Assembly (NCBI GenBank): GCA_020692325.1
Contig: JAIMKR010000014.1
Coordinates: 1-64,000, forward strand
Direction of reading: 5' to 3'
Length of the DNA stretch: 64,000 nt
From: Desulfocurvus sp.
Lineage (GTDB): Bacteria > Desulfobacterota > Desulfovibrionia > Desulfovibrionales > Desulfovibrionaceae
Part shown: piece after piece, positions 58,353 to 64,000 of the stretch
Layout of the letters: each line of letters begins with the position of its first letter
Numbering within the stretch: position 1 is the stretch's first letter
Program-made: the position numbers and the translations under genes
Notes under the pieces: generated by a model
Databases searched by the model: none
What the model saw: only the letters and a program-made list of their open reading frames with translations
What the model was told of the DNA's origin: nothing

Positions 58353-58379
58353 CGTTGTCATGTGTGCCGTGCTCCGCCG

Positions 58380-60563
58380 TTAGCGGATGAACAGCATTTC
58401 CTGGTAGCTGGGCAGCGGCCACAGATCGTCGGCCACCACGGTCTCCAGGGCGTCGGCGAAGGAGCGCACGTCGAGCATGGCGGGCAGGATCTTGTCGCAG
58501 AGGTACTTGGCCTCGGCGTGGGCGTCCTTGCCCTCGACACCGGCGAGCAGTTTGTCCAGCTTGCCCACGGACTCCTGCATGCCGCGCAGCTTGGCGGTCA
58601 CATCCTCGAGGGCGGACATCTTGTAGTCGTGGCCGATGGCCTTGAGGTTGACGCAGCAGGAAGTGAGCTCGCTCTGGTACCGCATGGCGGCGGGGAAGAT
58701 GATGGTGGTGGCCATGCGGACCACGAGGGCTGCCTCGGTCTTGATGGTCTTGCTGTACTGCTCCAGGTAGATTTCCTCGCGGCTCTTCAGCTCGGCCTCG
58801 GTGAGAACGCCGTACTTTGTGAAGAGCTCGACGCAGGACTTGCTGGAAAGCGCGGGCAGGGCGTCGGGAGTGGTGTGCAGGTTGGGCAGACCACGCTTCT
58901 CGGCTTCCTTGTGCCAGGCCTCGGAATAGCCGTCGCCGTTGAACACCACGGCTCCGTGCTCCTTGATGACCTTCTGGAGCAGGGACTGAACGGCGGTGTG
59001 CAGCTTTTTGGGATCGCCCTTGGTGGCTTTCTCCAGCTCGGTGGCCATGTAGTCCAGGGACTCGGACATGATGGTGTTCAGGGCCACGAGCGGGCCACCG
59101 ATGGACTGCGAGGAGCCGACGGCGCGGAACTCGAAGCGGTTGCCGGTGAAGGCGAAGGGGCTGGTACGGTTGCGGTCGCCCGGATCCATGGGCAGCGGGG
59201 GCAGCGTATCGACGCCGATGTTCATGATGCCCTTCTGCTTGGAGCCGTTAAGCTTGCCCTTCTTGATCTGGTCGAACACGTCGGCCAGCTGCTCGCCGAG
59301 GTACATGGAGATGATGGCCGGGGGAGCCTCGTTGGCGCCCAGGCGGTGATCGTTGGAGGCGGAGGCCACTGTGGCGCGCAGCACGGCGCCGTACTGGTGC
59401 AGGCCACGGATGGCGGCGGCGCAGAACACCAGGAACTGGGCATTCTCATGCGGGGTGTCGCCCGGATCGAACAGGGAGCCGAGCTCGGCGTTGCCCACGG
59501 AGTAGTTGAGGTGCTTGCCCGAGCCGTTGATGCCGGCGAAGGGCTTCTCGTGCAGCAGGCAGATCATGCCATAGCGCTTGGCGACGCCGCGCAGGGTGGT
59601 CATGACCATCTGATTGTGGTCGGTACCCAGGTTGCCCTGCTCGTAGATGGGGGCGATTTCAAACTGGCTGGGAGCGACCTCGTTGTGACGGGTCTTGACG
59701 GGCACTCCCAGCTTGAACAGCTCGCGCTCGACCTCCATCATGAAGGAGAGCACGCGGTGGGGCACCACACCGAAGTACTGGTCCTCGAATTCCTGGCCTT
59801 TGGCGGACTTGGCCCCGAAGAGGCTGCGGCCGGCGATGAGCAGGTCGGGACGGGCGAAGATGAAGTTGCGGTCGATGAGGAAGTACTCCTGCTCGGGACC
59901 GGCGAAGGAGGTCACGGGCAGCTTGGTCTCGACGCCGAAGAGTTTGAGCAGGCGCTTGGCCTGGATGTTGAGGGCCTGGTTGGAGCGCAGCAGCGGGGTC
60001 TTCTTGTCCAGGGCCTCGCCGGACCAGGACACGAAGGCCGTGGGAATGCACAGGAAGGTGCCGTTCGGATTCTCCAGGATGTAGGCCGGGCTGGTCACGT
60101 CCCAGGCGGTGTAGCCGCGGGCTTCGAAAGTGGAGCGCAGGCCGCCGGAGGGGAAGCTGGAGGCGTCGGGTTCGCCCTGGATGAGCAGCTGGCCGCTGAA
60201 CTCGGCGAGGGCGCCGCCCTTGCCGTCGGGCACCAGGAAGGCGTCGTGCTTCTCGGCGGTCATGCCGGTGAGCGGGAAGAACACGTGGGTGAAGTGTGTG
60301 GCGCCTTTCTCGATGGCCCAGTCCTTCATGGCGTTGGCGACGACATCGGCGACCGACGGATCCAGTTTCTCGCCCAGCTCGATGGTCTTCTTGAGGGACT
60401 TGAACACGGCCTTGGGCAGGCGGTCCTTCATCACCTTTTCGTTGAAGACGTTGGAGCCGAAGATCTCGGTGGGTTTGGTCTCGTGAAAATTCAGGGGCGC
60501 ATGTGACGGTTTGTAGTTGATGACGGCCGAGATGGCGTTGAGACGTGCCTGGATTCCGCTCAT
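58380..60563 (-). CDS. glnN: Type III glutamine synthetase
   Basis: [89 protein letters not shown]; large (about 727 aa). Confidence 0.94.
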
Positions 60564-60597
60564 GTGGCTGACTCCTGTAAGTATGGCTTTTGTGTTT

Positions 60598-60625
60598 GAT
60601 TGGCATTTCTGTGAGAACGCCAATC
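60598..60625. repeat. Inverted repeat GATTGGC-N14-GCCAATC in the glnN leader
   Basis: gattggc atttctgtgagaac gccaatc, about 35 bp upstream of the start codon. Confidence 0.6.
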
Positions 60626-60909: not shown

Positions 60910-63540
60910 TCACCGCGTTAGCCCTGTGAGGAAGGGGGAGGCTTGGCGAAGAGGCAGCAAAAACGTGCCCAGGCGACGGTCGTCGGTCAACACGTGCCCC
61001 AGCAGCCGTTCCTTGAGAAATGCGTCCACCCGCTTGCCGCGCGCGCTGTTTTGGGGGCCGTCGCCCTCACGAAGGTCGCGCACAGCGGCCAGCAGCTGCG
61101 TATGCCGGCGCCTGTGCTCCTCGCGGTCGGGATAGCCGTGCCGTTCCATGAGTTCGCCTTCGGCTTGGCTGTGACGCTCCAGCTCCGTGAGCAGCGTTTC
61201 GATCACGGCGGCGATCCTTTCGCGCGGCGCGTGGTCCAGGTTTTCCAGTTCGGCGAAGAGTGCGCGGTGGTCCGCGTCCATACGGGCGCTTCCCGTGGCG
61301 TACGCCTCGCGCCAGGTCAGCGGGCCAAAGCGTGTCTCGGCGCGGACGGCCTTGTTCAACCTGGTTTCGTGCGTTTCGAGCAGCTTCCAGCGGATGATGG
61401 GCACGTCTGCGAGGACCTGGACGGGGATATGATAGATGACGGCGTCGCGCGAGCCGCATGTCTTCGCCGTGTACGGACAGGGAACGTCGAAAAGCACCTC
61501 CCCCCCGCGGAAGAAATCGCCCGGGCCCAGGCGCACGAAGGGACGGGAGCCGAGGAGCAGATCGACGCGCCCGGAGCGCAAGAGGCACAGCCCGGAGACG
61601 CCTGTGGCGCCGATGGCACTGCCTGGCGCATATCGGCGGATGTCCAGCGCGGTGGCCATGGCGTTTTGCCGGGCGCGGGAGATGGCGTCGCCGAAGAGCG
61701 CGTTGGTCTGGAGGAATCCGCGCACGTCCAGCTGCCGCGTCATGGTTTCGAGAAGGCCGTTGCCCTCGATGAACGCGCGATACCGCTCCACGGGAATGCG
61801 CAGGGCCTGGACGAAGCCCGCCGCGCGGTGGGTCTCGGCCGAGGGGCGTCCGGTTAGCGCCGTGACCTCGCCGAGGAGAGCCCCGAGGCACAGTGTTGTG
61901 AGAATCTTGCCGCTTGCGCGGAGCATCTCCACTTGGCCGGCGAGCAGCAGATGCACGGACTGCGCTTTGCGGCCGCCTTTGAGGATGATCGTTTCCGGGG
62001 GAAAGCTGTCGATGGGGTTGTCGAGCAGCGCGCGCAGACTGTCCGTGGGCACGCCGGGGAAATACGCCTTCAGCGTGGTGAACGCGTGGGAGCGCGCGTC
62101 CTCCCGATCCGAGGGGACGAGCGTGTCCACGGCGCCGAAGAATGCGCCGGAGCCGATGGCCTTCTGCCGGTCGGTGAGGGGCAGGGCCGTGTGGGCCAGC
62201 ACGATCTTGCGCGACTGGTCATGGGCGAAGTCCTCGGCGTCGCCGTGAATCATGCCGCCGCCGATGTCGATCTTCTTGAGATCGACGGGGGTGAGGTAGT
62301 CGCGCTCCACCTGTTCGTACAGCGCCCGCGAAAGACCGGGCGCGCCGTCGTCGGTGATCATGCCGCGCAGCAGCCGCAGGCTGGCGATGTCCGCGAAGTG
62401 CGCGTAGGTGCGGTAGCCATTGCGTCCCAGCGCGCGGAAGAACAGCACCGTGGTCTCCACCGGGTGCGGCGAGAACACGGGCTTCACCTCCAGCGCGTCG
62501 ATGTCATTCCACTCGTCGAGGGTCAGATCGTGATAGTCGAAGGAGTGCTCGAACTCATCCTCGCCCAGCATGGACAGGGCCGCCAGCTTTTTTATCACCG
62601 AGGCGCGCACGAAGCGCGTGGCGTAGTAGGGGATGCGGTGATCCGCGCGCATGAGGTCGGGCAGACCGCAAAAGTGGTCGTCATGGGCGTGGGTGTGGAA
62701 CACTCCGGCGATCTCGTTGACGCTGATGCCCAGCGCGTTCAGGCTGTGCATGATGTTCGGGCCGGCGTCGATGAGATAGACCTTGCCCTGGAACAGCAGG
62801 ATGCTGGCCATGGCGGGACGGTTGGGGTCCCAGCCGTCGCCCTCTCCGGAATGCAGCACGGCGAAGTCGTCGCGCCAGATGTGGTGGTGGCCCAGCGCGT
62901 ATGGGGGCAGGGATTGGTTTTGCGGCGGCAGGCGCAAATCCACGCGTACGCTCTCGCCCTTGTAGAAGATGTCGAAAACGTCCGGCCGCACCCGCTTCAC
63001 GCCGACGCCGCCCCGCAGTTCGCGCCAGCCGTTTTCCAGCGAAACGAGATCGAGATATTCCTCCATTCGGCGGATGCGTCCGAAAGCGAACCTGAGCTTC
63101 AGGCGCATCATGTCCCGCGCGAGCTCCGGCGCCACGCCGGCGGCCAGCAGCTCTCCCTCGCTGATCAGCCCGTAGTTGCCGCGGAAGACATATTCCATCT
63201 GCGCCTCGACCTGCCGGCGTGAGCCGACGACCAGCGGCTTGACGCCGAGGTTGTTGGGGTGCCCCGGGATGATGCGTCCCTGGCGATAGAACATGTGCAG
63301 GATTGGGAACTCGGCGAGGTTGGCGAAACGGCCGTTCTGCGGCGACGTGTCCGCGAGCAGGATGGCGTTGGGGCCGGTCTCGAAGCGGACGCCCTCCGCC
63401 TCGCGCTCCTGAATGAGCCCGCGTTTCATAAGATGTTTCACGCTATCGACCGGGCAGCCGCACAAAATATGCAGGTCGGCCTCGGGGATTGTTACGTAAT
63501 AAACGCCCTCGGTTACATCGGTCTTGAATATTGCTGGCAT
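60910..63540 (-). CDS. Multidomain protein: metallo-beta-lactamase fold, two cyclic-nucleotide-binding-like domains, C-terminal bacteriohemerythrin
   Basis: VFHTHAHDDHFCGL (MBL HxHxDH), ETIILKGGRKAQSVHLLLAGQVEML... and APGSAIGATGVSGLCLLRSGRVDLLLGSRPFVRLGPGDFFRGGEVLF (CNB), DADHRALFAELENL...LERHSQAEGELMERHGYPDREEHRRRHTQLL...LLGHVLTDDRRLGTFL (hemerythrin). Confidence 0.85.
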   Translation of the reverse strand: MPAIFKTDVTEGVYYVTIPEADLHILCGCPVDSVKHLMKRGLIQEREAEGVRFETGPNAILLADTSPQNGRFANLAEFPILHMFYRQGRIIPGHPNNLGVKPLVVGSRRQVEAQMEYVFRGNYGLISEGELLAAGVAPELARDMMRLKLRFAFGRIRRMEEYLDLVSLENGWRELRGGVGVKRVRPDVFDIFYKGESVRVDLRLPPQNQSLPPYALGHHHIWRDDFAVLHSGEGDGWDPNRPAMASILLFQGKVYLIDAGPNIMHSLNALGISVNEIAGVFHTHAHDDHFCGLPDLMRADHRIPYYATRFVRASVIKKLAALSMLGEDEFEHSFDYHDLTLDEWNDIDALEVKPVFSPHPVETTVLFFRALGRNGYRTYAHFADIASLRLLRGMITDDGAPGLSRALYEQVERDYLTPVDLKKIDIGGGMIHGDAEDFAHDQSRKIVLAHTALPLTDRQKAIGSGAFFGAVDTLVPSDREDARSHAFTTLKAYFPGVPTDSLRALLDNPIDSFPPETIILKGGRKAQSVHLLLAGQVEMLRASGKILTTLCLGALLGEVTALTGRPSAETHRAAGFVQALRIPVERYRAFIEGNGLLETMTRQLDVRGFLQTNALFGDAISRARQNAMATALDIRRYAPGSAIGATGVSGLCLLRSGRVDLLLGSRPFVRLGPGDFFRGGEVLFDVPCPYTAKTCGSRDAVIYHIPVQVLADVPIIRWKLLETHETRLNKAVRAETRFGPLTWREAYATGSARMDADHRALFAELENLDHAPRERIAAVIETLLTELERHSQAEGELMERHGYPDREEHRRRHTQLLAAVRDLREGDGPQNSARGKRVDAFLKERLLGHVLTDDRRLGTFLLPLRQASPFLTGLTR

Positions 63541-63751
63541 TGCAGCTCCGAAACTCCTGGACCGCAGTTGCGTGCGAAAGTGACGACCGGCCGGGACGCG
63601 CTGATCAGGAACGATTATACCGTGTCGGGGCTTATCCGTCCAGCGAATGGCTGTTTGATGTCCGTCGATGACTTCGTGGCGCGCCTTGCCTTACGCCGCA
63701 TCTTTCGTGTACGGAAAAATGATCCCGGATTCCGGGCGACGGAGGGGGAAC

Positions 63752-64000
63752 ATGAATAGCCTGACCAGGAAGGAACGCATCCTCATCGTCGACGATGAGT
63801 TGATCAACCGCAAGGTGCTCGAGGGGTTGCTCAAGGCTCGCGGGCACGAGTGCGTCTCCGCCGAGAATGGGCCGGCCGCGCTCAAGCTGCTGGATAAATC
63901 CATCGCTCTCGTCCTCCTGGACATCATGATGCCCGGCATGGACGGCTTTAGCGTGGTGCGCGCCATCCGGCAGATGCCCGAATACGCCGACCTGCCCATC
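63752..64000 (+). CDS. Response regulator receiver domain protein, truncated by the window end
   Basis: MNSLTRKERILIVDDELINRKVLEGLLKARGHECVSAENGPAALKLLDKSIALVLLDIMMPGMDGFSVVRAIRQMPEY. Confidence 0.85.
   Translation, partial: MNSLTRKERILIVDDELINRKVLEGLLKARGHECVSAENGPAALKLLDKSIALVLLDIMMPGMDGFSVVRAIRQMPEYADLPI

Follow-up and report, generated by a model that had tools for sequence, protein, structure and literature searches.

Atypical class-II cyclic-nucleotide phosphodiesterases, such as Rv1339, YhfI, and CpdA, carry the signature [T/S]HXHXDH (PMC9293780). Hydrolysis of cyclic nucleotides with two zinc ions has been described for YhfI and for Apyc1, a cyclic-nucleotide nuclease of phages and bacteria (PMC9117128). 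In Dictyostelium, GbpA and GbpB are intracellular class IIb cyclic-nucleotide phosphodiesterases, in which an MBL catalytic domain is followed by two CNB domains, and which are activated by cyclic nucleotides (PMC11988041). Hemerythrin domains linked to enzymes are found in Bhr-DGC and Bhr-HD-GYP, and both enzymes react to changes in the redox state of their di-iron sites; a 2022 review knows of no bacterial hemerythrin sensor phosphodiesterase other than Bhr-HD-GYP (PMC9388753).

The window, i.e., the whole stretch of 64,000 nucleotides of Desulfocurvus sp. that was analysed, encodes an 876-aa MBL-CNB-CNB-hemerythrin protein that varies these known kinds rather than representing a new kind of system. 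It resembles Rv1339, YhfI, and CpdA in the [T/S]HXHXDH motif, the Lactamase_B_2 family, and the fold neighbourhood, but these enzymes are described without CNB or hemerythrin domains, whereas the MBL domain of the window protein is flanked by domains on both sides. Similarly, it shares with Apyc1 a di-metal HxHxDH MBL domain (Foldseek TM-score of 0.66-0.70, by target length), although Apyc1 lacks the regulatory domains that are present here. The single-chain order MBL-CNB-CNB is that of GbpA and GbpB, with which the protein was compared by domain order only; however, GbpA and GbpB are described without a hemerythrin domain, and the CNB domains of the bacterial family lack the cAMP arginine. 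The c-di-GMP phosphodiesterase Bhr-HD-GYP of Ferrovum, active only when diferrous, also joins a hemerythrin to a phosphodiesterase, but it has a different catalytic fold, c-di-GMP as substrate, and an N-terminal hemerythrin, in contrast with the C-terminal one of the window protein (PMC9388753). A literature search did not retrieve the MBL-CNB-CNB-hemerythrin layout, nor is it mentioned in the main text of a survey of 56 hemerythrin architectures. The features of the locus are as follows:

60910..63540, - strand: whole gene, 876 aa, encoding an N-terminal domain, MBL, CNB-A, CNB-B, and hemerythrin (open reading frame, Pfam, and model)
62926..63540, - strand: N-terminal domain, residues 1-205 (mean identity of 59%, confident model)
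62101..62925, - strand: MBL-fold domain of the phosphodiesterase-branch type, residues 206-480 (Pfam, Foldseek, mean identity of 64%)
62674..62691, - strand: metal motif H284-A-H286-D-D288-H289, completed by H359, D384, and H450 (invariant, 39 homologues)
61705..62058, - strand: CNB-A, residues 495-612, with cassette GEVTALTGRPSA, in which Glu558 is kept and Arg is replaced by Ser567
61336..61704, - strand: CNB-B, residues 613-735 (to its end in a linker helix), with cassette Glu replaced by Gly679 and Arg by Cys688
60955..61323, - strand: hemerythrin domain, residues 740-862, with the full HHEHHHD ligand set
63541..63751, no strand: divergent intergenic region of 211 bp, in which the element ATTCGCTGGACGGATA, around 63633-63649 (- strand), is conserved
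63752..64000, + strand: divergent gene for a REC-HD-GYP response regulator of 363 aa, which begins here and continues past the window

The gene is a single open frame on the - strand (ATG at 63540, stop at 60910-60912, no internal stops), with GGAG a short way 5' of the ATG, with which the starts of the homologues align. Differences from the nearest homologue gather at third codon positions (195/152/356 by codon position, 865 codons), so that the coding status of the frame is certain. Pfam searches retrieved cNMP_binding (E-value of 1.5e-17, two stretches), Lactamase_B_2 (1.4e-9), Lactamase_B (8.3e-8), and Hemerythrin (9.3e-7); a hemerythrin domain of NCBIfam was matched too (6.3e-19), TIGR02481 scoring above its cut-off. 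An AlphaFold model built on 39 homologues was obtained with a pLDDT of 87 and a pTM of 0.85. The intact frame, the family matches, and the model together bear out the initial annotation, which had described a single chain of 876 aa joining an MBL fold with HTHAHDDH, two CNB-like domains, and a C-terminal hemerythrin with its full ligand set. In the sequence, the metal ligands of the MBL domain and those of the di-iron site are all present.

Beyond these four domains, the protein possesses an extra N-terminal domain (residues 1-~205), for which a Pfam search matched no family; neither this domain nor the strand of the gene had been given in the initial annotation. This region is highly conserved and contains the motifs LCGCPADSVKHLMKRGLI and ETGPNAILLSD. 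The order of its secondary structures and one long alignment to ELAC2 had raised the idea of an MBL duplication, which was rejected (hhalign probability below 1%, no profile support).

In its modelled structure, the MBL domain resembles the phosphodiesterases among MBL-fold proteins. Its motif T283-H284-A-H286-D-D288-H289 (THAHDDH) fits the class-II signature, and [T/S]HxHxDH together with H359, D384, and H450 is kept in 39/39 homologues, invariant apart from the X positions. The nearest structures to the modelled MBL half were a solved arylsulfatase entry, Apyc1, RNase Z, YhfI, and PhnP, with RNase J also near; most Foldseek neighbours are nucleotide phosphodiesterases or related phosphohydrolases, including the GMP-bound protein 3md7. 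The Apyc1 model (PF23023) was matched weakly by 36 of the 39 family members, and the window protein, scoring 24.5 bits versus a curated cut-off of 50, is not a member. Pfam and profile searches of the window protein and its homologues gave no match to an RNase Z exosite or a beta-CASP domain. An oxygen-binding MBL domain of the flavodiiron/ODP type was rejected, the decisive position being His, not Glu, in 39/39 proteins, as was a phage-defence protein, PADLOC-DB giving no match for the window protein at an E-value threshold of 0.01.

The CNB fold of the two following domains is indicated by Pfam and by their best structural (Foldseek) and profile matches, namely PKA-R and PKG. CNB-B on its own is weak in the window copy (26.3 bits versus a cut-off of 27.5), but its fold is visible in the model, and the family profile aligns over the tandem CNB domains of PKG. 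In PKA RI-alpha, R209 and R333 neutralise the cyclic phosphate (PMC10959531). This phosphate-cassette arginine occurs in none of the 39 homologues in CNB-A and in at most three of them in CNB-B (absent from at least 36), whereas the cassette glutamate is kept in 35/39 for CNB-A and in 35/39 for CNB-B. The window protein has the arginine in neither domain and the glutamate in CNB-A only. Because the arginine is replaced by Ser567 and Cys688, and is rare or absent among the 39 homologues, classical binding of cAMP or cGMP by CNB-A or CNB-B appears unlikely. A loss of nucleotide-binding residues in both domains, named at the outset as a finding that would count against the annotation, was thus largely encountered on alignment, although CNB-A still has its glutamate and a ligand of another kind is possible. 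Nucleoside-type domains as in trypanosomatid PKA were considered and rejected: the regulatory subunits of this kinase, among the best structural matches, likewise have tandem CNB domains without the cassette arginine, but they carry a diagnostic Glu in place of A202, a position that is mostly Thr, Ser, or Ala in the window family (PMC10959531). Elsewhere in the host genome, two large SulP-like transporter frames (L090 = G000:C17; L091 = G000:C21) end in CNB domains, the cassette arginine being kept in one (APRSAS) and lacking in the other.

The C-terminal hemerythrin domain has the five His, one Glu, and one Asp ligands of a di-iron site (H758, H790/E794, H809/H813, H849/D854). A C-terminal hemerythrin region is present in 25 of the 39 homologues; the ligand set is complete in 20 of these 25 long members and ligands are lost in the other five. 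Mapped onto the tree of the core, its presence needs about seven changes, so that the hemerythrin is an optional add-on, probably gained or lost repeatedly. Two Nitrospirota proteins carry a REC domain fused at the N-terminus instead. Redox gating of the window protein would be a natural expectation by analogy with Bhr-DGC and Bhr-HD-GYP, both of which are redox-responsive through their di-iron sites.

The 39 homologues are spread over about ten phyla, with a core (aa 1-480) that is 49-80% identical. Mean identity is highest for the MBL domain (64%), followed by residues 1-205 (59%), CNB-A (43%), CNB-B (35%), and the hemerythrin domain (30%). Most genomes of the host genus contain a relative, either full-length or restricted to the core, the Desulfovibrionaceae host having Humidesulfovibrio as its nearest named relatives, and further relatives are scattered over Desulfonema, Magnetococcales, Paramagnetospirillum, Nitrospirota, Spirochaetota, Planctomycetota, Lentisphaerota, Armatimonadota, Campylobacterota, Myxococcota, and Betaproteobacteria. 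The core was present in only four of the 396 sampled genomes of the host phylum. This patchy spread, together with a core tree that mixes phyla and whose deep forks are weakly supported, points to horizontal transfer. Plasmid-borne spread was considered as well, and no plasmid match was found.

The gene is associated with class III cyclases. Such a cyclase occurred in all 37 tested genomes carrying the gene. Within the Desulfovibrionaceae, it was present in 19/19 genomes with the gene versus 102/180 without it (Fisher p of 4e-5, the kinship of the genomes being ignored), and it was found in 18/18 distant carriers versus 5/14 unrelated control genomes. Genome type explains part of this co-occurrence, because cyclases are common in the carrier genomes (4-21 copies per distant carrier). 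Proximity was observed too: a cyclase lies within 6 kb of the gene in three lineages, namely Paramagnetospirillum/Phaeospirillum, Magnetococcales, and Spirochaetaceae, with four nearby cyclases seen versus about 0.5 expected by chance from the cyclase counts of the 18 distant carriers. In Paramagnetospirillum (L055:46-5920), genes for a CHASE2-class III cyclase, a TPR-CHAT protein, and the MBL-CNB-CNB protein share a strand, their frames being closely spaced or overlapping, and make up a candidate signalling operon; in Paramagnetospirillum/Phaeospirillum, these three genes have the same strand and form a probable operon. In Spirochaetaceae (L063:8187-9059, L070:8203-9123), a gene for an Apyc1-family MBL phosphodiesterase is located directly downstream of the MBL-CNB-CNB gene and convergent with it.

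Adenylyl-type class III cyclases are recognized by a Lys and a Thr residue. As all neighbouring cyclases carry both, cAMP is the likely messenger. In the host genome, the cyclase model detected one class III cyclase, which is dCache-like and has the adenylyl-type residues (G000:C17:272152-273374; L089:1105-4913). It is followed by genes for a single-domain hemerythrin and a CheW-REC (CheV-like) protein, a cluster hinting at a second link between O2, cAMP, and chemotaxis.

The response regulator that had been noted about 210 bp away on the opposite strand was found to start at 63752 (+ strand), across an intergenic region of 211 bp, and to be a full gene of the REC-HD-GYP type. Where the flank of a genus locus is long enough, a head-to-head REC-HD-GYP gene (71-86% identical) is present, with one exception (L039) that gave no match. 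Glutamine synthetase III adjoins the gene within the genus, and the synteny of both neighbours stops at the genus border. The intergenic element at window positions 63633-63649 (consensus AATTCNCTGGACRRATA) is conserved in nine loci of the genus; a regulon motif derived from it was rejected, only one good site occurring in the host genome. A 714-aa frame on the + strand (window positions 58362-60506), antisense to glutamine synthetase III (58380-60623, - strand), is a high-GC artefact and not a gene.

The best explanation, held with slightly more belief than doubt, is that the protein is a candidate hemerythrin-gated MBL-type phosphodiesterase of cyclic nucleotides (probably cAMP), cytosolic and with degenerate CNB domains. 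Its MBL domain would bind two metal ions and open a 3',5'-cyclic nucleotide, of which cAMP is the most likely, and the two CNB-fold domains would make up a regulatory arm that lies between this enzyme and the C-terminal hemerythrin. The latter may switch its di-iron site with O2 or redox and thereby raise or lower the phosphodiesterase activity, with a cAMP level that would follow oxygen; in other lineages, where the core is free of hemerythrin, the input can come from a REC domain. The CNB domains are probably not classical cAMP or cGMP binders; they may have a different small-molecule ligand or act as a relay. This explanation draws on the invariant MBL ligands, the class-II motif, the fold neighbours, the domain order of GbpA and GbpB, the cyclase association, the Apyc1-family gene in Spirochaetaceae, the hemerythrin gene that follows the host cyclase, the mostly complete hemerythrin ligand sets, and the REC fusion. 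It is weakened by the missing cassette arginines, by the cleavage of RNA or other phosphodiesters by similar MBL domains, by the limitation of nearby cyclases to three lineages among genomes rich in cyclases, and by the low conservation and partial ligand loss of the hemerythrin. A more specific form, in which a hemerythrin-gated cAMP phosphodiesterase with a conserved N-terminal domain has tandem CNB domains that now sense another molecule, and in which O2 or redox sets cAMP by way of its breakdown, is put forward tentatively. By contrast, the initial annotation had placed cyclic nucleotides on the CNB domains as regulators of an oxygen- or redox-controlled metallohydrolase in an anaerobe exposed to oxygen. 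The MBL ligands, the di-iron set, and the anaerobe-type host agree with this proposal, but the part concerning cyclic-nucleotide control was not supported, the cassette arginine being lost in both CNB domains. An enzyme stimulated by cAMP or cGMP as GbpA and GbpB are (PMC11988041), to which the hemerythrin would add O2 control, is thus rather improbable: the resemblance of the CNB fold to PKA-R and PKG and the widely kept cassette glutamates speak for it, but they are set against the arginine counts given above and a window CNB-B that is also devoid of the glutamate. It is more likely that the cyclic nucleotide is the substrate of the MBL domain and not its regulator.

MBL domains similar to this one cleave RNA or other phosphodiesters, and an O2- or redox-gated hydrolase might act on an RNA end, a cyclic dinucleotide, pGpG, or a nucleotide diester, being linked to c-di-GMP via the REC-HD-GYP neighbour. 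RNase Z, RNase J, and PhnP are indeed among the nearest folds, and the HD-GYP gene stands head-to-head with the gene in the genus loci. This neighbour, however, is confined to the genus and travels with the glutamine synthetase synteny, whereas cyclase neighbours recur in unrelated lineages, and the RNase Z exosite and beta-CASP domain are unmatched, making such a substrate unlikely, if less so than classical stimulation through the CNB domains. As there are flavo-diiron oxygen sensors with an MBL fold, the protein could also be a non-catalytic O2 or redox receptor, with MBL metals that form a structural or sensing site only. Flavodiiron proteins carry the iron ligand motif HxExDH, however, whereas the hydrolase-type HxHxDH-H-D-H set is invariant in 39/39 family members and no part of the protein is better conserved than the MBL core, leaving this reading very improbable.

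If a hemerythrin-gated cyclic-nucleotide phosphodiesterase is indeed encoded here, it would be a second kind of bacterial hemerythrin sensor phosphodiesterase, differing from the first in fold and probably also in messenger. The family gives the unusual MBL-CNB-CNB enzymes of slime moulds a counterpart in bacteria, and its CNB domains, which seem to have given up cAMP, are a natural example of such a loss. The same reading, if true, would connect cAMP with oxygen in magnetotactic bacteria and in anaerobes.
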